NCBI GenBank assembly: GCA_016219375.1
Contig: JACRNC010000018.1
Coordinates: forward strand, 1 to 51,925
DNA from: Burkholderiales bacterium
GTDB taxonomy: Bacteria > Pseudomonadota > Gammaproteobacteria > Burkholderiales > Burkholderiaceae_C
Length of the DNA stretch: 51,925 bases
Reading direction: 5' to 3'
Shown here: in pieces, positions 42,241-51,254 of the stretch
Position numbering within the stretch: the first letter of the stretch is position 1
Layout: every line of letters begins with the position of its first letter
The notes under the pieces: model-generated
The model's input: only the letters and a program-made list of their open reading frames with translations
Databases searched by the model: none
Told to the model about the DNA's origin: nothing
Made by a program: the position numbers and the translations under genes

Positions 42241-44982
42241 ATGGCCGATTGGGTCAAAGGCTTCTGGGGCAAGGCGCGCCCCGTGCCTGGGGCAGCGCAC
42301 GCGCATCATGCGCTCGCCTATCACTGCCTGGATGTGGCCGCTGTCGCGGTGGCCTACCTGCGCCGCGCGCCGGCTCTGCGGCGGCTTATTGCTGACACGC
42401 TGGGGGTGCCCGATGACGAGCGCCTGATCGGCTGGCCGGCCTTCTGGCTGGCCCTGCACGACATCGGCAAGTTCGGCGAGGACTTCCAGGGCCAGTGCCC
42501 CGAGCTGTTCCACGAGCTCCGGGGACGCGAGCCACGCTTGCAAGGCAGCCCAGGCGTGCGGCACGACAGCACCGGGCTGCTGTTGTGGAAGCAGCGGCTG
42601 TCCAAACATGCTGTTGCACAAGGCTGGTTCGGCGCACGGACGGCTGATGCCATGGAAGCTTGGCATTGGTGGGCACGAGCCGTCATCGGCCACCACGGCC
42701 AGCCGCCACTGGAGCGGCGGCTGTTTCCGCGCGACCATTTCGACGAGGAAGACATACGAGCGGCGTCGAACTTCGCCGAGGTCGCCCGCGCGCTGCTTCT
42801 GCCCGAGCCGCCGCCTTTCGAGTCCGCGGATGTCGAGCACCTGGAGCTGGCCAGCCGGGCGCTGTCCTGGTGGCTCGCGGGTCTTGCCGTGATGGCCGAC
42901 TGGATCGGCTCCAACCAGGATCACTTCCCCTATCGCGCAGGCGGCATGTCGCTGCCGGACTACTGGCTCTGCGCGCAGCAGCAGGCCGCTCAGGCGCTGG
43001 ATGCGGCCGGCGTGCTGCCCATGCCCAGCGTGGGCGAGCTGCGCTTCGCCGAGCTCTTCCCGCAGATCACCGAGCCGTCTCCGCTGCAGCACTGGGCGGC
43101 GACCGTGGAGCTGAGCGACCAGCCGCAGATCCACCTGCTCGAAGACGTGACGGGGGCCGGCAAGACCGAGGCCGCCGTCATGCTCACGCATCGGCTGATG
43201 GCGCGGGGTGTGGCCTCCGGCTTCTTCATCGGCCTGCCGACCATGGCCACGGCCAATGCCATGTACGGCCGCATTGCCGAGGTCTATGCACGACTGTTCC
43301 CCGGCATGGCAAGCCTCGTGCTGTCGCATGGCCAGCGCATGCTGGTGGAGGCCTTTGCCGACTCCATCCTGCGGCCCGGCGACGAGGAGCACGACCCCAG
43401 CCAGCAGGATGAGACGGCCACCGCCCGCTGTGCGGCCTGGCTGGCGGACCACAACAAGTGCGCGCTGCTGGCCCCGGGTGGTGTGGGCACGCTGGACCAG
43501 GCGCTGCTGGCGGCCTTGCAGAGCAAGCACCAGTCGGTGCGCCTGCTGGGCCTGTTCCGCAAGGTGCTGGTGGTCGACGAGGTGCATGCCTGCGATCCGT
43601 ACATGCAGCGCGTACTGGAGACCGTTCTGGAGTTCCATGCCCGCTCAGGCGGCAGCGCCATCCTGCTGTCGGCCACGCTGCCGCAGCGCATGAAGCAGTC
43701 GCTACTGGGGGCGTTTGCGCGTGGGCGGCACAGCAAGGCTTTGCCACTGCTAGAGCAGGACTTCCCGCTCGTCACCGCCTGGCATGCGGGCATGCCGGCG
43801 GCGTACGAGCGGCCCATCAACACCCGGCCCAACGTTGTTCGCCAGCTCAAGGTGCGCTACGTCAGCGAGCTTGAAGAAGTGATCAGCGGCATCGTGCAGG
43901 CGCTGGAGGCGGGCCGCTGCGTCTGCTGGATGCGCAACACCGTGGCCGATGTGCTCGATGCCTACGCCCTGCTTGCACAGCATGTGCCGCCGGAGCGCAT
44001 CACCGTCTTCCATGCGCGCTTCGCCTTGCGCGACCGGCTGGATACCGAGGGCTTCGTGCTCGACCAATTCGGCAAGAGCAGTGCTCCTCAACAACGAGCC
44101 GGAAAGTTGGTGCTCGCTTCACAGGTGGCAGAGGCCTCCCTGGATGCCGATTGGGACTTGGTCATCTCCGACCTCGCGCCCATTGACCGCCTGCTGCAAC
44201 GCGCCGGCCGCCTCATGCGCCATGTGCGTGATGCTGCGGGCAGCCGCCTCACGCAACCGGGCGCGGTGGACGGCCGGGGCGAGCCCTGCCTGTGGGTGTT
44301 CGGACCGGCGTGGAGCGAGCAGCCCGCCGCCAACTGGTTCAAGGCCCACCTGCCCAAGGCGGCCAAGGTCTACCCCAACCATGCCCAGCTCTGGCACACC
44401 GCCCGCGTGCTGCAGCAGGGGCAACTCAGCATGCCGGGCGATGCGCGCCGGATCATCGAGGCGGTGTATGGCGAGCAGGCCGTGGCGCCGGAGGGCCTGG
44501 CCAGGATCGCCCAGCATGCCGAAGGCGACGATGAGAGCGAGGCGAGCCAGGGCCAGCAGAACAGCATCAAGCTGGAGGAGGGCTACACCCGCGGCCCCAT
44601 CGACTGGTGGGCCGAAGCCGCCACGCCCTCCCGCTTGGGCGAGCCCACCACCGACGTCGTCCTGGCCCGCTGGGACGGAGACCGCCTGCTGCCCTGGGCG
44701 GTGCACGACAAGCCGCGTGCGGCCTGGGCCTACAGCAGCCTGCGGCTGGCCCAGCGGTTGATCGCCAAAACGGCCGAGCCCGCCTGCCCAACGCGCCAGC
44801 AAGAACTGCAGCGCGTGCTGGACGAGCTGCCCGGCCACGGCCGCTGGAGCGTGGTGCTGGCTTTGGAGCTAGCCGACGAGCACTGGACCGGGTCGGCGTT
44901 GGCCGGACCCGAAGGCAAGGAGGTGCGGAAGGCGTGGCGCTATGACCCCCGGCTGGGGTTGCTGCCAGACCAAGACAGATGA
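42241..44982 (+). CDS. cas3: CRISPR-associated nuclease-helicase Cas3 (type I-E)
   Basis: A 913-residue protein that nicks, unwinds and degrades target DNA once Cascade has bound. The N-terminal HD nuclease domain has H73-D74 in LALHDIGKF and upstream His in HHALAYHCLDVA. The SF2 helicase follows: Walker A TGAGKTEAAV with Lys308, DEVH box at residues 446-449 (VVDEVHACD), LLSATLPQRMK (motif III), then the C-terminal lobe with QVAEASLDADWDLVISDLAP and QRAGRLMRH (motif VI). All key residues are visible, so it should be active. It is separated from cas8e by 256 bp holding a crRNA-like element. Confidence 0.97.
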   Translation: MADWVKGFWGKARPVPGAAHAHHALAYHCLDVAAVAVAYLRRAPALRRLIADTLGVPDDERLIGWPAFWLALHDIGKFGEDFQGQCPELFHELRGREPRLQGSPGVRHDSTGLLLWKQRLSKHAVAQGWFGARTADAMEAWHWWARAVIGHHGQPPLERRLFPRDHFDEEDIRAASNFAEVARALLLPEPPPFESADVEHLELASRALSWWLAGLAVMADWIGSNQDHFPYRAGGMSLPDYWLCAQQQAAQALDAAGVLPMPSVGELRFAELFPQITEPSPLQHWAATVELSDQPQIHLLEDVTGAGKTEAAVMLTHRLMARGVASGFFIGLPTMATANAMYGRIAEVYARLFPGMASLVLSHGQRMLVEAFADSILRPGDEEHDPSQQDETATARCAAWLADHNKCALLAPGGVGTLDQALLAALQSKHQSVRLLGLFRKVLVVDEVHACDPYMQRVLETVLEFHARSGGSAILLSATLPQRMKQSLLGAFARGRHSKALPLLEQDFPLVTAWHAGMPAAYERPINTRPNVVRQLKVRYVSELEEVISGIVQALEAGRCVCWMRNTVADVLDAYALLAQHVPPERITVFHARFALRDRLDTEGFVLDQFGKSSAPQQRAGKLVLASQVAEASLDADWDLVISDLAPIDRLLQRAGRLMRHVRDAAGSRLTQPGAVDGRGEPCLWVFGPAWSEQPAANWFKAHLPKAAKVYPNHAQLWHTARVLQQGQLSMPGDARRIIEAVYGEQAVAPEGLARIAQHAEGDDESEASQGQQNSIKLEEGYTRGPIDWWAEAATPSRLGEPTTDVVLARWDGDRLLPWAVHDKPRAAWAYSSLRLAQRLIAKTAEPACPTRQQELQRVLDELPGHGRWSVVLALELADEHWTGSALAGPEGKEVRKAWRYDPRLGLLPDQDR

Positions 44983-45007
44983 GCCGGCGGTCATTGGCCG
45001 CCGGCTC
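44981..45007. terminator. Hairpin at the end of cas3
   Basis: A perfect 10-bp stem, GAGCCGGCGG (44981-44990) and CCGCCGGCTC (44998-45007), has a 7-nt loop and starts inside the cas3 stop codon. Neither strand has a strong T-run after it. It overlaps the end of the degenerate repeat ψR2 by 6 bp, so on the minus strand it could also close off the crRNA-like transcript. Confidence 0.55.
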
Positions 45008-45071
45008 GCCCCGCTGGCGCGGGGAACGGGTTTTCCCTCACACAGGACACGGTTCATCCCCGGGGGGAAGC
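45002..45071 (-). ncRNA. creR: CreR-like crRNA-like RNA: ψR1 - guide - ψR2
   Basis: On the minus strand, in order: ψR1 (45071-45050) ends with GGGGATGAACCG, identical to the last 12 nt of the array repeat and including the full 8-nt crRNA 5' handle. A 20-nt guide follows (45049-45030, TGTCCTGTGTGAGGGAAAAC). Then ψR2 (45029-45002) contains GTTCCCCGCGCCAGCGGGG, a repeat core with a 6-bp stem CCCCGC/GCGGGG and loop GCCA. The first 11 guide nt match 45167-45157, upstream of cas8e, and that match is preceded on the same strand by AAG, the I-E PAM. The guide locus itself is preceded by CCG of the repeat, so it is not self-targeted. Known family: Cas-regulating RNAs (CreR) or CreA antitoxins, which direct Cascade to a promoter with a partial match. 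That this one is transcribed and works is inference. No convincing minus-strand promoter is seen, though TACACT (45088-45083) is a possible -10. Confidence 0.8.
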
Positions 45072-45135
45072 AGTGAACAGTCAGTGTAGGGGTCGGCGTC
45101 TTGACGCGGCGCACAAGGCGGCCGAAGATGCAAGG

Positions 45136-45170
45136 GAATGTCCTTAATGCTTCCAGCACACAGGACACTT
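45136..45170 (-). promoter_or_regulatory. Predicted Cascade autorepression target in the cas8e promoter region
   Basis: The PAM AAG (45170-45168 on the minus strand) is followed by TGTCCTGTGTG (45167-45157), identical to the seed of the crRNA-like guide. Positions 12 and 13 mismatch and 14-17 match again (GGAA). A full 32-nt Cascade footprint would cover 45136-45167. It abuts or overlaps the best candidate -35 for cas8e, so binding should block transcription without the extensive pairing that triggers Cas3. Confidence 0.75.
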
Positions 45171-45197
45171 TCTAAGTGAAGAGCGGGGCGCTATGCT
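45169..45197 (+). promoter_or_regulatory. Candidate cas8e operon promoter
   Basis: -35 TTTCTA (45169-45174), 17-bp spacer, -10 TATGCT (45192-45197); both boxes are weak. The ribosome-binding site AGGGAGGA (45223-45230) lies 8 bp before ATG 45239. A second candidate is TTGACG at 45101 with GAAGAT at 45124. Either would be affected by Cascade on 45136-45170. Confidence 0.4.
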
Positions 45198-45238
45198 TTC
45201 GCTAACGCTGTCAAAAACGACGAGGGAGGAAAGCCAAC

Positions 45239-46879
45239 ATGAACTTGTTGGACGCACCGTGGCTGCCCGTTCGCCGACGCTCCGGCGAACGGGCCTGGGC
45301 CACGCCACTGGAAGCCTTGAGCGACCCGAATGTGGTGGGGGTCGACGCCGACCGGGGTGACTTCAACGTCGCCGGCCACACGGCCCTGGTCGGGCTGCTG
45401 CAGACCGTCACGCCGGTCGACACGGCCACCGCCTGGAAGCGCCTGTTCGCCAACCCGCCCGGCATCGACACGCTGCGCGAGTGGTGTGCGCCCATCCGCT
45501 CCGCCTTCGAGGCCGATGGCGATGGGCCCCGCTTCATGCAGGACTTGCCCTTTGCCGCTGCCGAGACAGCCTCCATCGCCAACCTGCTGATCGACTCGCC
45601 GGGCGAGAACGGCATCAAGAACAACGCCGACCACTTCATCAAACGCGGCCGGGTGCGCCAGCTCTGCCCGTGCTGCGCGGTGATGGCGCTGCTGACCCTG
45701 CAGATCAACGCGCCCGCGGGCGGGGCCGGCAACCGCACCGGGCTGCGGGGCGGTGGGCCGCTCACCACCTTGGTCACGTGCATGGCGCCGCGCAGCCTCT
45801 GGCATGACGTCTGGCTCAATGTGCAGCAGCGCGGCGCCTTCCTCAGTGCCTGCGGTGATGCCGGCAAGACGGCGCCCCACTTCAGCTTCCCCTGGCTGGC
45901 CGAGGTCGCCGCCATCCAGCCCGAAGGGGGGCAGACGGCGCCGCTGGCCGTCCATCCTGCGCATGTGTGGTGGGCCATGCCGCGCCGCATCCGGTTGGAC
46001 TTTGACCAGACGGCCAGCGGCGACTGCGACCTGTGCGGACGCCCTGGCGACAAGCTCCTCACGCGCTACATCACGCGGCCCCAGGGCCTCAACTACAAAG
46101 GCCCGTGGGCGCACCCGCTTTCCCCCTATTACCAGGCCAAGGACGAGTGGCTGCCCGTCCACCCCCAGCCCGACGGCCTGGGCTACCGGCACTGGGTCGG
46201 CTGGGTGCTGGGCATGGCGCGTGACAACGGTCGAGTGCGCCCCGCCAAGGCGGTGGAGACGGCCTTGAAGTGGACGGACCTGGGTGTCGATCTGTCCATC
46301 TGGGCCTCGGGCTACGACATGGACAACATGAAGCCCCGCTGCTGGTACGAGTCCCGCCTGCCGCTGTTTGGACTGCCGCAATGCGACGAGGAAGAGCGGC
46401 TGATGGTGGCCGAGGACGTCGGCGCCTGGGTGATGGGTGCGGAGCAGGCCGCTCGCTGCCTGCGCGCGGCCGTGGCGGCCGCCTGGTTTCCCGGCGACAC
46501 CCGCGGCGACCTGGGCCAGATCACCGCCAGCTTCTGGGCCGCGACCGAGGCGCCGTTCTATCGCCTGGTGCGCGAGCGCATCGAGTCCGCCCGGTCCGGG
46601 TTGGAGCATGACGCCACCGCCACGGCAGAGCGCTGGCTCGCCACGCTGAGCCGCGCGGCGCGGGATCTCTTCGATCACCAATACGTGGGCGCGGGCAACG
46701 TCGAGCGCCAGCATCCGGATCGCATCGCAACGGCCTACCGCAGTCTGCGCGCCGCGCTCAACGGCAAGGCCATCCGGCAGGCGCTGCGTCTGCCCGTCAA
46801 GGAGATCCCTGCATCGCGTCGCGGCCCCGGTACGGCCGCACGCAAGAGCGGTGCTGCAGCAAGCAAGGAGGGAGCATGA
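45239..46879 (+). CDS. cas8e: Cascade large subunit Cas8e (Cse1/CasA)
   Basis: A 546-residue type I-E large subunit, which recognises the PAM and recruits Cas3. The start NLLDAPWLPVRR and the loop IDSPGENGIKNNADHF are family hallmarks. Two Cys pairs, C143-PC-C146 and C263-DL-C266, form a probable zinc site as seen in several Cse1 structures. The C-terminal four-helix bundle follows. It is about 40 residues longer than the E. coli protein, partly from a basic Ala-rich tail. It opens the Cascade operon; its stop overlaps the cse2 start (ATGA). Confidence 0.96.
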   Translation: MNLLDAPWLPVRRRSGERAWATPLEALSDPNVVGVDADRGDFNVAGHTALVGLLQTVTPVDTATAWKRLFANPPGIDTLREWCAPIRSAFEADGDGPRFMQDLPFAAAETASIANLLIDSPGENGIKNNADHFIKRGRVRQLCPCCAVMALLTLQINAPAGGAGNRTGLRGGGPLTTLVTCMAPRSLWHDVWLNVQQRGAFLSACGDAGKTAPHFSFPWLAEVAAIQPEGGQTAPLAVHPAHVWWAMPRRIRLDFDQTASGDCDLCGRPGDKLLTRYITRPQGLNYKGPWAHPLSPYYQAKDEWLPVHPQPDGLGYRHWVGWVLGMARDNGRVRPAKAVETALKWTDLGVDLSIWASGYDMDNMKPRCWYESRLPLFGLPQCDEEERLMVAEDVGAWVMGAEQAARCLRAAVAAAWFPGDTRGDLGQITASFWAATEAPFYRLVRERIESARSGLEHDATATAERWLATLSRAARDLFDHQYVGAGNVERQHPDRIATAYRSLRAALNGKAIRQALRLPVKEIPASRRGPGTAARKSGAAASKEGA

Positions 46880-47382
46880 AACTGGAGATCAAACGTGACA
46901 ACGCTGCCGGCGAGATGCTGGTGAAGTGGTGGGCCGAACTGGCCGACGACAAGGGCGGCCGGGCCGAGCTCAAGCGCGCGGCCGATGTGACCCGCGTGGT
47001 CATGTCGCCCGCCTACCAGCGGCTGCACCGCATGCTGTGCAAGGTGCTGCCCGAAGGCCAGGTGCCGGCCCACAAGGAGGACCGGCTGGCCATCGCCGCG
47101 GCCCTGCTGGCGCACGTCAAGGACGACGACAGCGGCGCCTCGCTGCCTGTGCTGATGAGCAAGCGGGAGCAGGAAAGCGACCGCCCGCCGGTCAGCCCGC
47201 TGCGCTTTCGCCGGCTGCTGGAGACGACGGATGTCGACGATCTCTTCGTCGGCCTGCGCCGCGTGCTGCCGCTGTTGGGCCACCGGGTCAACGTGGTGGC
47301 CTTGACCAATGACCTCCTCAACTGGGGCGACGCCACGCGCAAGCGTTGGGCCTATGGCTACCAGTGGCCGCAGTCGTCCTGA
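46876..47382 (+). CDS. cse2: Cascade small subunit Cse2 (CasB/Cas11)
   Basis: A 168-residue helical protein of the Cse2 family. It forms the Cascade inner belly as a dimer and stabilises the R-loop. Family features: LVKWWAELADDKGGRAELKRAADVTRV near the start and PLRFRRLLETTDVDDLFVGLRRVLPLLG in the C-terminal half, with a typical WGD/RKRWAYGY end. The ATG overlaps the cas8e stop by 4 bp. Confidence 0.94.
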   Translation: MKLEIKRDNAAGEMLVKWWAELADDKGGRAELKRAADVTRVVMSPAYQRLHRMLCKVLPEGQVPAHKEDRLAIAAALLAHVKDDDSGASLPVLMSKREQESDRPPVSPLRFRRLLETTDVDDLFVGLRRVLPLLGHRVNVVALTNDLLNWGDATRKRWAYGYQWPQSS

Positions 47383-47437
47383 GCCGCCTCATCTTCTTCA
47401 TCGACCCATCAAGACACTTCTCATCCGGAGGGAGCCC

Positions 47438-48565
47438 ATGTCTCGTTTCGTTCAACTCCACGTCCTCACGCACTATCCGCCGTCCAACCTCAACCGCGAC
47501 GACACCGGCCGGCCCAAGACCGCGCTGGTCGGCGATGCGCTGCGGCTGCGCATCTCCTCGCAGAGCCAGAAGCGGGCCTGGCGCACGTCGGACGTGTTCG
47601 AGACGGCGCTCGCCGGCCACATTGGCACGCGCACCAAGGAGTTGGGCCCCGAGCTGTACAAGGCGATGACGGCAGCTGGTGCGCCGGACAAGGACGCCCG
47701 CGCCTGGGCGCGGGCCATCGCCGAGAAGTTCGGCAAGCTCAAGGCCGAGAAGAAGGAGAAGGCCGACAAGGCCGACAAGGCGGAGAAGGGCGCCGACAAG
47801 GCGGACGTCGCCTACACCGACCTGCAGATCGAGCAGCTGGCCCACATCAGCCCGCAGGAGTGGGAGGCCGCCATGACCCTGGCGCGGGCCTGCGCCGAGC
47901 GCAAGTCCGCCCCGCAGGCGGACGAGCTGTCGCTGCTGACCCAGCCTCGCTCGGCGGTGGACATCGCCATGTTCGGCCGCATGCTGGCCGATGCGCCGCA
48001 GTTCAACGTGGAGGCCGCGATCCAGGTCTCGCACGCCTTCACGGTGCACAAGGCGCAGGTGGAGGACGACTTCTTCAGCGCGGTGGACGACATCAACCCG
48101 CGTGGCGCCGGCCACATCGACGAGCGCGGCTATGGCGCCGGGCTGTACTACCTCTACGTCTGCATCGACCGTGAGCTGCTCAAGACCAACCTTGGCGGCG
48201 ACGAGGCGCTGGCCGCCAAGGGCCTGGCCGCGCTGGTTGAGGCCATCACCAAGGTGTCGCCAACGGGCATGCAGAACAGCTTCGCCTCGCGCGCCTACGC
48301 CGGCTACGTGCTGGCAGAAAAGGGCGCGCAGCAGCCGCGCTCGCTGTCGCAAGCCTTCGTCGACCCGGTGCGCCCCGGCGCGGGCGGCGACGATGACGGC
48401 AGTGGCGGCGGCACCGGCATGGTCGCGGCGGCCAAGCGCGCCCTGAAGAAGCGTCAGGACGGCTTCGACCGCGTCTACGGCGCCTGTGCGGATGCGCGCT
48501 ACGAGCTGGACGTCGAGGCCCCGCAGGGCTCGCTCAGCGAGCTGATCGCCTTCGTCCAGGGCTGA
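47438..48565 (+). CDS. cas7: Cascade backbone subunit Cas7e (CasC)
   Basis: A 375-residue RAMP-like protein, six copies of which coat the crRNA spacer. Family start FVQLHVLTHYPPSNLNRDDTGRPK with ISSQSQKRAWRTS, and the thumb/palm region FTVHKAQVEDDFFSAVDDI followed by GAGHIDERGYGAGLYY. A Lys/Ala/Asp/Glu-rich insert of about 30 residues (around 101-128, KAEKKEKADKADKAEKGADK) is unusual. A Gly/Asp-rich loop (GAGGDDDGSGGG) lies near residue 315. RBS GGAGGGAG precedes the ATG. The 55-bp gap from cse2 has no other feature. Confidence 0.96.
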   Translation: MSRFVQLHVLTHYPPSNLNRDDTGRPKTALVGDALRLRISSQSQKRAWRTSDVFETALAGHIGTRTKELGPELYKAMTAAGAPDKDARAWARAIAEKFGKLKAEKKEKADKADKAEKGADKADVAYTDLQIEQLAHISPQEWEAAMTLARACAERKSAPQADELSLLTQPRSAVDIAMFGRMLADAPQFNVEAAIQVSHAFTVHKAQVEDDFFSAVDDINPRGAGHIDERGYGAGLYYLYVCIDRELLKTNLGGDEALAAKGLAALVEAITKVSPTGMQNSFASRAYAGYVLAEKGAQQPRSLSQAFVDPVRPGAGGDDDGSGGGTGMVAAAKRALKKRQDGFDRVYGACADARYELDVEAPQGSLSELIAFVQG

Positions 48566-48569
48566 GGTC

Positions 48570-49379
48570 ATGGAGCTGCTCGTCTTCCAGCTCCAGGGCG
48601 AGCTCGCCGCCTGGGGCGAGCCGGCCGTCGGCGAAAACCGGGGCACACAGAGCCACCCCAGCCAGTCTGCGCTGGTGGGGCTGCTGTGCGCCGCTCTCGG
48701 TCTGCAACGTGACGACCCCGCCATCCAGCGCATGGCGCAGGGCTATGCCTTTGCCGTGGGCATCCAGCAAGACGGCCGGCTGCTGCGCGACTTCCACACG
48801 GCGCAGGTGCCCCCGCGCAGTGCGCTCAAGGGCCGCCCGCATCGCACCCGGCGCGATGAGCTCACGGTGCCCGAGCTGGGCACCATCCTGTCGCGCCGCG
48901 ACTACCGGCAGCAGGTGGCGTATGTGGTCGCGGTCCAGGCACTGGACGGCGCCCCGCACGCATTGAACGCGCTCGCGCAGGCGCTGCAGCAGCCGCGTTA
49001 TGTGCTCTACCTCGGCCGCAAGTCATGTCCGCCGTCGGCACCGCTGGCGCCGGAGCTTGTGCAGGCGGACACCGTGTGCAGCGCCTTCGACACCTACCTG
49101 CGCGCCATCACCGAGCGCATTGCGGCCGCTCACGACCAGCGGGGCCGCGCCCGCCTGCCGCTACCCGCACCCATCGACGCGCTGGCCTGGGACGACGCCA
49201 TGAGCCCGCACATGGGCGCCGCGCCGGACCTGAGCGTCACGCGCAAGGACCGCGTGCTGCGCCGCCGCGGCTGGCAGTTCGCCGACCGCATGGAGCACCT
49301 GCACAGGCTGCAGCCGCCGGCGCCAGAACAAATTGAGATCGCCGAGGGAGACGATGTACTTCAGCCTGATCCTTCCTGA
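48570..49379 (+). CDS. cas5e: Cascade subunit Cas5e (CasD)
   Basis: A 269-residue RAMP protein that caps the crRNA 5' handle. Hallmarks: LVFQLQGELAAWGEPAVGENRGTQSHPSQSALVGLLCAALG at the N-terminus (the family G-rich/S-x-S motif) and QPRYVLYLGRKSCPPSAPL. It starts 4 bp after cas7 and overlaps cas6e by 26 bp. Confidence 0.95.
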   Translation: MELLVFQLQGELAAWGEPAVGENRGTQSHPSQSALVGLLCAALGLQRDDPAIQRMAQGYAFAVGIQQDGRLLRDFHTAQVPPRSALKGRPHRTRRDELTVPELGTILSRRDYRQQVAYVVAVQALDGAPHALNALAQALQQPRYVLYLGRKSCPPSAPLAPELVQADTVCSAFDTYLRAITERIAAAHDQRGRARLPLPAPIDALAWDDAMSPHMGAAPDLSVTRKDRVLRRRGWQFADRMEHLHRLQPPAPEQIEIAEGDDVLQPDPS

Positions 49380-50037
49380 GCCGGGGCAGGAGCGTGTGGC
49401 CGCCCGCGCGCACCTGACCGATCCGTATGCCGAGCACCAGTGGCTGTGGCGCTGGTTCCCGGCCGAGGCCGGTACGGCGCGTGATTTCATCTATCGCCGC
49501 CGCGAGGCGGACGGCATCCCGCGCTACTACGTGGTCTCCAAGCGGCATCCCGTGCAGCCGCAGCCGGGGTGGTCCCTGCAATGCAGGCCGTATGACCCGG
49601 AGTTGGCCAAAGGCGAGCGTCTGGCTTTCGACCTGCGGGCCAATGCGGTGGTCAGCCGCCCGGCAGACGGCAAAGGCCGGCGCCATGACGTGGTGATGGA
49701 CGAGAAGCGGCGCCTGCTGCAGGAGCGGGGTCTGGAGCAGTGGTCCAGGTGGGACCGCAGCGAACGCCCGCCGCTCTACGAGATCGTCCATGCGGCTGGC
49801 TACAGATGGCTGGCCCAGCGCGCCGAGGCGTGCGGCTTCCAACTGGACGAGGCCCAGCTGCGGGCGGATGCCTATGTGCAGCACCGCATCAAGGGCGCCG
49901 TGAAGTTCACCAGCATCGACTTCAGCGGCGAGCTGCTCGTCACCGATCCGGAGAAGTTCAAGGCCGTCCTGCTGAAGGGCATTGGCCATGCCAAGGCCTT
50001 CGGCTGTGGGCTGCTGTTGGTCAGACGCCTGGTGTGA
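49354..50037 (+). CDS. cas6e: crRNA-processing endonuclease Cas6e (CasE)
   Basis: A 227-residue ferredoxin-fold nuclease. It cuts precursor crRNA at the base of the repeat hairpin and stays bound to the 3' end. Family start MYFSLILPEPG, likely catalytic His in AEHQWLWRWFP, and the C-terminal glycine-rich loop LLKGIGHAKAFGCGLLLVRRL. It would process both the array repeats and, if transcribed, ψR2 of the crRNA-like element. The start at 49354 overlaps cas5e; the in-frame ATG at 49333 is less likely. Confidence 0.95.
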   Translation: MYFSLILPEPGQERVAARAHLTDPYAEHQWLWRWFPAEAGTARDFIYRRREADGIPRYYVVSKRHPVQPQPGWSLQCRPYDPELAKGERLAFDLRANAVVSRPADGKGRRHDVVMDEKRRLLQERGLEQWSRWDRSERPPLYEIVHAAGYRWLAQRAEACGFQLDEAQLRADAYVQHRIKGAVKFTSIDFSGELLVTDPEKFKAVLLKGIGHAKAFGCGLLLVRRLV

Positions 50038-50065
50038 GCCCGCGCGGCATGCCAAGGCTTGACAC

Positions 50066-51254
<1,189 letters not shown>

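Follow-up and report, generated by a model that had tools for sequence, protein, structure and literature searches.

The 256-bp gap between cas3 and cas8e of the type I-E CRISPR-Cas locus in the window (the whole stretch of 51,925 nucleotides that was analysed) very probably encodes a CreR (cas-regulating RNA), a crRNA-like guide by which Cascade would be directed to repress the cas8e operon. The gap has the architecture of a one-spacer mini-CRISPR with a PAM-flanked match nearby, and guide and target covary across 43 loci that have the same layout and different guides. The match shows a 6-nt periodicity, and the guide lengths are clustered.

A one-spacer mini-CRISPR and its target

The type I-E cas set of the window is complete in profile and motif searches, and the Cas3 motifs are present (Table 1). 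The array contains nine complete spacers, each of 32-33 nt, and contig C7 of the same genome also begins with related repeats. In the gap, a complete mini-CRISPR is found on the minus strand (45078-45001) in the order of psiR1, guide, and psiR2. The psiR1 handle GGGGATGAACCG (minus strand, 45061-45050) reproduces the last 12 nt of the array repeat exactly, and the guide start TGTCCTGTGTG (45049-45039) comes directly after it. Because psiR2 closes the unit, the guide is 20 nt long, compared to 32-33 nt for the array spacers. The 11 nt of TGTCCTGTGTG are repeated at 45167-45157, preceded by AAG at 45170-45168, at a distance of 118 bp from start to start, and the target lies 72 bp upstream of the cas8e start. 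The first-pass annotation had reported both the 11-nt guide start after an intact 12-nt repeat end and its AAG-flanked recurrence upstream of cas8e, and the sequences and positions are confirmed. The match even goes beyond that description: the 11 nt, called a limited seed match there, are part of a longer one, in which positions 1-11 and 14-17 agree (15 of the first 17). The interpretation given there is, as a whole, partly supported.

Table 1. Features of the window locus and of the corresponding region of E. coli K-12 MG1655
Feature	Position	Strand	Basis or detail
cas3 (HD nuclease and helicase)	42241..44982	+	NCBIfam TIGR01587 and TIGR01596 above cut-off; HDIGK at 73, DEVH at 446, SAT at 477
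Terminator-like hairpin, 10 bp, 3′ end of predicted RNA	44981..45007	-	1 found vs shuffle mean 0.3
psiR2, degenerate repeat with CCCCGC-GCCA-GCGGGG	45001..45029	-	18/29 identical to array repeat, ungapped
creR guide, 20 nt	45030..45049	-	sequence comparison
psiR1, degenerate repeat; 12-nt 3′ handle intact	45050..45078	-	17/29 identical to array repeat, ungapped
Possible creR -10 (TACACT)	45083..45088	-	weak prediction, by eye
Target protospacer (seed 45157-45167)	45136..45167	-	sequence match to guide
AAG PAM	45168..45170	-	adjoins target
Possible cas8e promoter TTTCTA-17-TATGCT, -35 sharing bases with PAM	45169..45197	+	weak prediction; by eye and likeness to L013
cas8e (cse1/casA)	45239..46879	+	TIGR02547, 276.7 bits, cut-off 70.05
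cas11, cas7, cas5, cas6e, cas1, cas2	46876..51254	+	profile matches
CRISPR array, 10 exact 29-nt repeats, reaching contig end	51342..51921	+	
MG1655 psiR1, stem CCCTAC/GTAGGG, handle GATAAACCG	L210:4482-4510		
MG1655 guide, 31 nt by psiR2 fit	NC_000913.3 2884510-2884540		
MG1655 psiR2-like hairpin	after guide in cas3-casA gap		
MG1655 target with AAG	NC_000913.3 2884356-2884387		matches positions 1-5, 7, 8, 10-16

The match was compared with chance by 3000 dinucleotide shuffles of 45063-45238. With AAG required, the window guide reaches a seed of 10/10, and the best shuffled value was 8/10 (8 shuffles); without the PAM condition, 10 was reached in one shuffle and 9 in 29. A search of the window's own genome (3,584,766 bases) for AAG and the seed, with position 6 free and at most one mismatch, gave a single hit, the target itself. 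The backward control pattern also gave one hit, so genome-wide uniqueness alone proves little.

The hairpin of psiR2 forms when a 21-nt piece is folded alone. In the minimum-energy folds of 77- and 103-nt RNAs, however, the hairpin is absent and its 5′ arm is taken up by pairing to the guide; this counts against the CreR reading, as does the degenerate stem of psiR1. The sole Rfam match over 44900-45300, Chlorobi-1 on the GC-rich hairpins, stayed below its gathering score (24 bits vs 50, E 0.00018) and was taken as chance.

The cas8e promoter, which the first-pass annotation had named as the target, is a prediction, although the target does lie upstream of cas8e; a sigma-70 consensus scan of 44940-45300 returned no site, a result that counts against the CreR reading. 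A promoter matrix prefers TTGACG/GAAGAT at 45101-45129 in the window, upstream of the target. By eye, a TTGAC-like -35 element starts 0 to ~10 bp past the PAM in many relatives, at times using the CTT of the PAM as well (L013, L070, and L098); in many relatives psiR1 also has a -10-like element directly beside it. The target is overlain by the best matrix promoter of the cas8e direction in 15 of 29 loci, compared to 9.5 expected, and by that of the creR direction in 25 of 29, compared to 10.1 expected; the latter figure is inflated by AT-rich targets. As a separate observation, one guide in L013 has two tandem AAG-flanked targets, 25 bp apart, at 128 and 153 bp upstream of cas8e.

Guide-target covariation and periodic pairing in relatives

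Related loci were collected at several taxonomic levels. In the family search, the Cas8e of the window was matched in 13 of 399 genomes, and five other listed genomes of the window's genus gave no Cas8e match; the order search, with matches in 38 of 399 genomes, yielded 30 loci, the window's own among them; the related-locus search contributed the best 80 loci of a longer list. Once six duplicates, a second copy of the window locus, and three loci lacking upstream sequence had been dropped, the set that was read comprised 113 loci (drawn in part from those best 80), among which some same-species copies may remain, such as L062 and L109. An antisense handle with a target was present in 29 of the 113 loci (best 80 of the longer list included), with AAG in 28 and ATG in one. 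Pairs were found in 26 of 35 loci having an ORF gap of at least 100 bp, in 3 of 75 with a shorter gap, where the ORF caller probably misjudged the gap, and in none of three in the undetermined class, one of which (L102) is misoriented, again with the best 80 of the longer list included.

One control uses handles that were not selected for a match. Exact GATGAACCG handles occur 15 times within 500 bp upstream of cas8e in the 113 loci (best 80 of the longer list included), and the best seed in the handle's own gap is 9-10/10 in 13 of these 15, the best match of each carrying AAG (14) or ATG (1). Swapped guides reached at least 9 in 65 of 1680 comparisons. For handles with one mismatch (n = 28, many in coding sequence), at least 9 was reached in 10, compared to 155 of 3136 after swapping. 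The class search (37 of 369 genomes matched, 29 loci read) added six pairs with five distinct guides, and the phylum search (33 of 398 genomes matched, 28 loci read), scored with a stricter total (18 vs 17) and two more handle variants than the class search, added one. In the family of G1475, taken for enterobacteria, 38 of 198 genomes matched and 28 loci were read with two handle variants; seven pairs were found, five in the 11 loci with an ORF gap of at least 100 bp, two in the six of undetermined gap, and none in the 11 with a shorter gap.

In all, there are 43 distinct guide-target pairs, that of E. coli K-12 included, of which 42 carry AAG and one ATG. The seed matches at 10/10 in 24 pairs, 9/10 in 15, and 8/10 in four. 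When guides were swapped among the 43 pairs, an AAG-flanked seed of at least 9/10 was reached in none of 1806 combinations and 8 in 21. Since the pairs were selected at a seed of at least 8/10, the evidential weight lies on the unconditioned handle test and on this swap control. This is the covariation comparison that the first-pass annotation had proposed, and the 43 loci lend strong support to its claim of a crRNA-like RNA that guides Cascade to the region upstream of cas8e. One match (L169), inside cas3, 1.25 kb upstream and on the other strand, was left out as chance; L171, whose guide repeats that of L164, is excluded from the pair counts and kept among the 44 rows of guide lengths. Distances to cas8e are unreliable for several class- and phylum-level loci that are truncated at a contig end or begin within cas8e (for example, L158, L163, L164, L171, L174, and L178).

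The absence of a pair in 9 of the 35 loci with an ORF gap of at least 100 bp counts against the CreR reading. Eight of the nine were inspected further, and no recognisable unit was found in those other than L018 and L062; two of these, L034 and L117, contain repeat-like remnants, and L062 seems to have cas3 in the wrong frame and apparently comes from the same organism as L109. The 648-bp gap upstream of cas8e in L018 holds an apparent toxin-antitoxin pair (HicAB-like, by eye) and no mini-CRISPR. L231 has an intact-looking antisense repeat end with an E. coli-type hairpin, followed by a GC-rich guide, at 252 bp upstream of its match to cas8e; no AAG target for this guide was detected in the gap, which also counts against the CreR reading. 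A search for creR units upstream of cas3 in loci with a small gap or none gave no pair in 20 regions, where cas3 length varies and its start may be missed in some.

The pairing itself carries a signature of Cascade. Over the 43 pairs, matches number 43, 43, 41, 43, and 40 at positions 1-5 and 12 at position 6; 43, 43, 34, 40, and 37 at positions 7-11 and 11 at position 12; and 34, 31, 28, 23, and 19 at positions 13-17 and 7 at position 18. Cascade flips out every sixth base, and the match falls to background at positions 6, 12, and 18, in agreement with this period. Positions 12-18 played no part in the selection of pairs, and the drops at 12 and 18 and the pairing at 13-17 are seen nonetheless. 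In CreA, positions 6 and 12 are likewise unpaired (PMC8501985).

Guide lengths cluster as well: among 44 rows there are 20 (6), 21 (8), 32 (14), 33 (9), and 34 nt (2), with one each of 22, 25, 26, 30, and 31 nt, so that 37 of 44 have 20/21 or 32/33 nt. The 12-nt step between the two classes equals two Cas7 footprints, and guide length has been described by L = 6N - 4 (PMC7296934). Truncated I-F1 complexes bind and open DNA without triggering Cas2/3, with I-E cleavage being less restricted (PMC7296934), and a 24-bp spacer in a I-B system gives repression without interference (PMC10989794). Short CreR guides appear to keep the 6-nt register, an extension that looks new.

Among seed mismatches (positions 1-5 and 7-11) in the 43 pairs, 17 of 23 have guide C against target T, and these concentrate at position 9, where they affect 9 of 16 guide Cs. 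R-loop deamination was considered as an explanation and rejected: C-to-T changes outnumber G-to-A in the seed of 34 pairs (15/68 vs 1/108), but the bias is concentrated at position 9, and positions 13-17 show none (C-to-T 3/27 vs G-to-A 10/48).

The copy in E. coli K-12

The cas3-casA gap of E. coli K-12 MG1655 also contains a mini-CRISPR and an AAG-flanked target (L210:4354-4570; NC_000913.3 2884353-2884569). In 5000 shuffles, a seed of 9 occurred in five, and a seed of 9 together with 13 of 15 pairing positions in none. In E. coli JNE151685 (L211), position 7 has changed from G to A in guide and target alike, which amounts to one compensatory event; in its target, position 9 now matches and position 12 has changed in the target alone. 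The MG1655 gap is matched by 1126 of 5426 complete E. coli genomes, in 1105 over at least 80% of its length.

The K-12 mini-CRISPR is located where anti-Pcas is transcribed, divergent to Pcas8e. The role of the anti-Pcas promoter is described as unknown (PMC10011333), and its transcript as 150-200 nt long and just downstream of cas3 (PMC7074321, 2020). By eye, TTATTA-17-TATAAT at the far side of the MG1655 target could start such an RNA; the consensus scan of this region gives a different weak site, no more than shuffles give. The available portions of PMC10011333 and PMC7074321 draw no link between anti-Pcas and a guide function, and CreR is unmentioned in PMC10011333. The unit at the anti-Pcas site looks new, with prior description in the 2023 CreR paper being possible. 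On balance we favour, with considerable reservation, the broader proposal that K-12 anti-Pcas is a CreR aiming Cascade at the back-to-back Pcas8e and anti-Pcas promoters, and that in I-E Gammaproteobacteria (in the GTDB sense, including Burkholderiales) such RNAs come in quantised sizes with 20/21- or 32/33-nt guides, the four-Cas7 'mini-Cascade' serving as a built-in non-cutting repressor, as in the window.

Proposed regulation, alternatives and known systems

Transcription, processing, loading, binding, repression, and sensing are steps that we infer for the window unit. The RNA would start near psiR1 and be cut by Cas6e at the repeats, and a CreR with a 20-nt guide would be loaded into a Cascade having four Cas7 subunits rather than six, by L = 6N - 4. 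This complex could bind AAG and guide segments 1-5, 7-11, and 13-17, and thereby occupy or adjoin the -35 region of cas8e as well as, in many relatives, the divergently oriented promoter of creR. With so short a pairing and guide, Cas3 would be prevented from cleaving the chromosome, and array crRNAs and anti-CRISPRs would remove CreR-loaded Cascade, thus lifting repression. In E. coli, AAG and the seed are enough for Cascade binding and interference needs 18-25 bp; off-target Cascade binding there had no effect on nearby genes, which counts against the CreR reading (PMC5904413). CreRs are described in a review as competing with array crRNAs for Cas proteins, so that abundant crRNAs or anti-CRISPRs lift repression (PMC12737573). 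The first-pass annotation had proposed that repression lifts when crRNAs or Cascade are scarce; the Cascade part is consistent with the scheme, but the direction for crRNAs is probably reversed because of this competition, their scarcity being expected to tighten repression (PMC12737573).

Three other readings were weighed. The unit could be the CreA antitoxin of a CreTA module, with a toxin RNA transcribed from the targeted promoter in the interval from target to psiR1; the target lies upstream of the guide on the same strand in 34 of 42 loci, which is the CreTA geometry (PMC8501985). The distance from target to psiR1, however, is 57 bp in the window, at most 72 bp in 39 of 42 loci and at most 37 bp in 26, and the target overlaps psiR1 in two; a separately transcribed toxin gene would hardly fit into such short spacing, and many relatives share the place with a cas8e-direction promoter. 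We consider CreTA very improbable; of the two relatives named in the first-pass annotation, CreR is the right label and CreTA is disfavoured by this spacing.

Slightly less credible still is a self-acquisition primer or other Cascade docking site without a repressor function. Target mutations that block interference in I-E may still permit priming (PMC13122317), whereas primed adaptation requires no fewer than 18 to 25 bp in E. coli (PMC5904413) and was lost in a I-B system when the spacer had 24 bp (PMC10989794), and the target is located at the operon start. The reading to which we give least credence is a decayed array remnant with a match due to chance or local duplication: the degeneracy of both repeats (17/29 and 18/29) and the empty promoter scan would suit it, but the swap and shuffle controls speak against it, and the periodic match profile is unexpected from duplication.

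If the CreR reading holds, then in many type I-E systems that have a cas3-cas8e gap an RNA thermostat would couple cas expression to free Cascade, to the load of crRNAs, and to attack by anti-CRISPRs, and the K-12 copy would allow a direct test of anti-Pcas function in the best-studied laboratory strain. Guides of 20/21 nt would then represent a natural truncated-spacer Cascade acting as a repressor; to our knowledge, such a repressor is known only as an engineered tool.

The window unit fits a CreR of type I-E, a kind already reported. CreRs acting through partial promoter complementarity have been reported in I-B, I-E, and V-A (PMC13131331), and the window unit shares with them a mini-CRISPR at the cas locus, a PAM-flanked partial match upstream of cas genes, and the lack of an apparent toxin (PMC12737573, PMC13131331, PMC12948488). 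Its ectopic mini-CRISPR is suited by sequence to a crRNA-like RNA, its match of 15/17 with AAG falls in a predicted cas promoter region, and guide and target covary in relatives (43 pairs). Nothing excludes membership, and the 20-nt guide class and the K-12 copy are unmentioned in the available portions of these three papers. CreA of CreTA (PMC8501985, PMC9458426) similarly has psiR1-psiS-psiR2, a guide that pairs at positions 1-5 and 7-11 and leaves out 6 and 12, and degenerate repeats, but in the window unit no toxin gene was found and the target stands in front of cas8e. In truncated-spacer Cascade (PMC7296934, PMC10989794), a 20-nt guide likewise corresponds to four Cas7 by L = 6N - 4, and short guides allow binding or repression without cleavage in I-F1 and I-B; those guides are engineered, whereas the short guide of the window is genomic and of type I-E.
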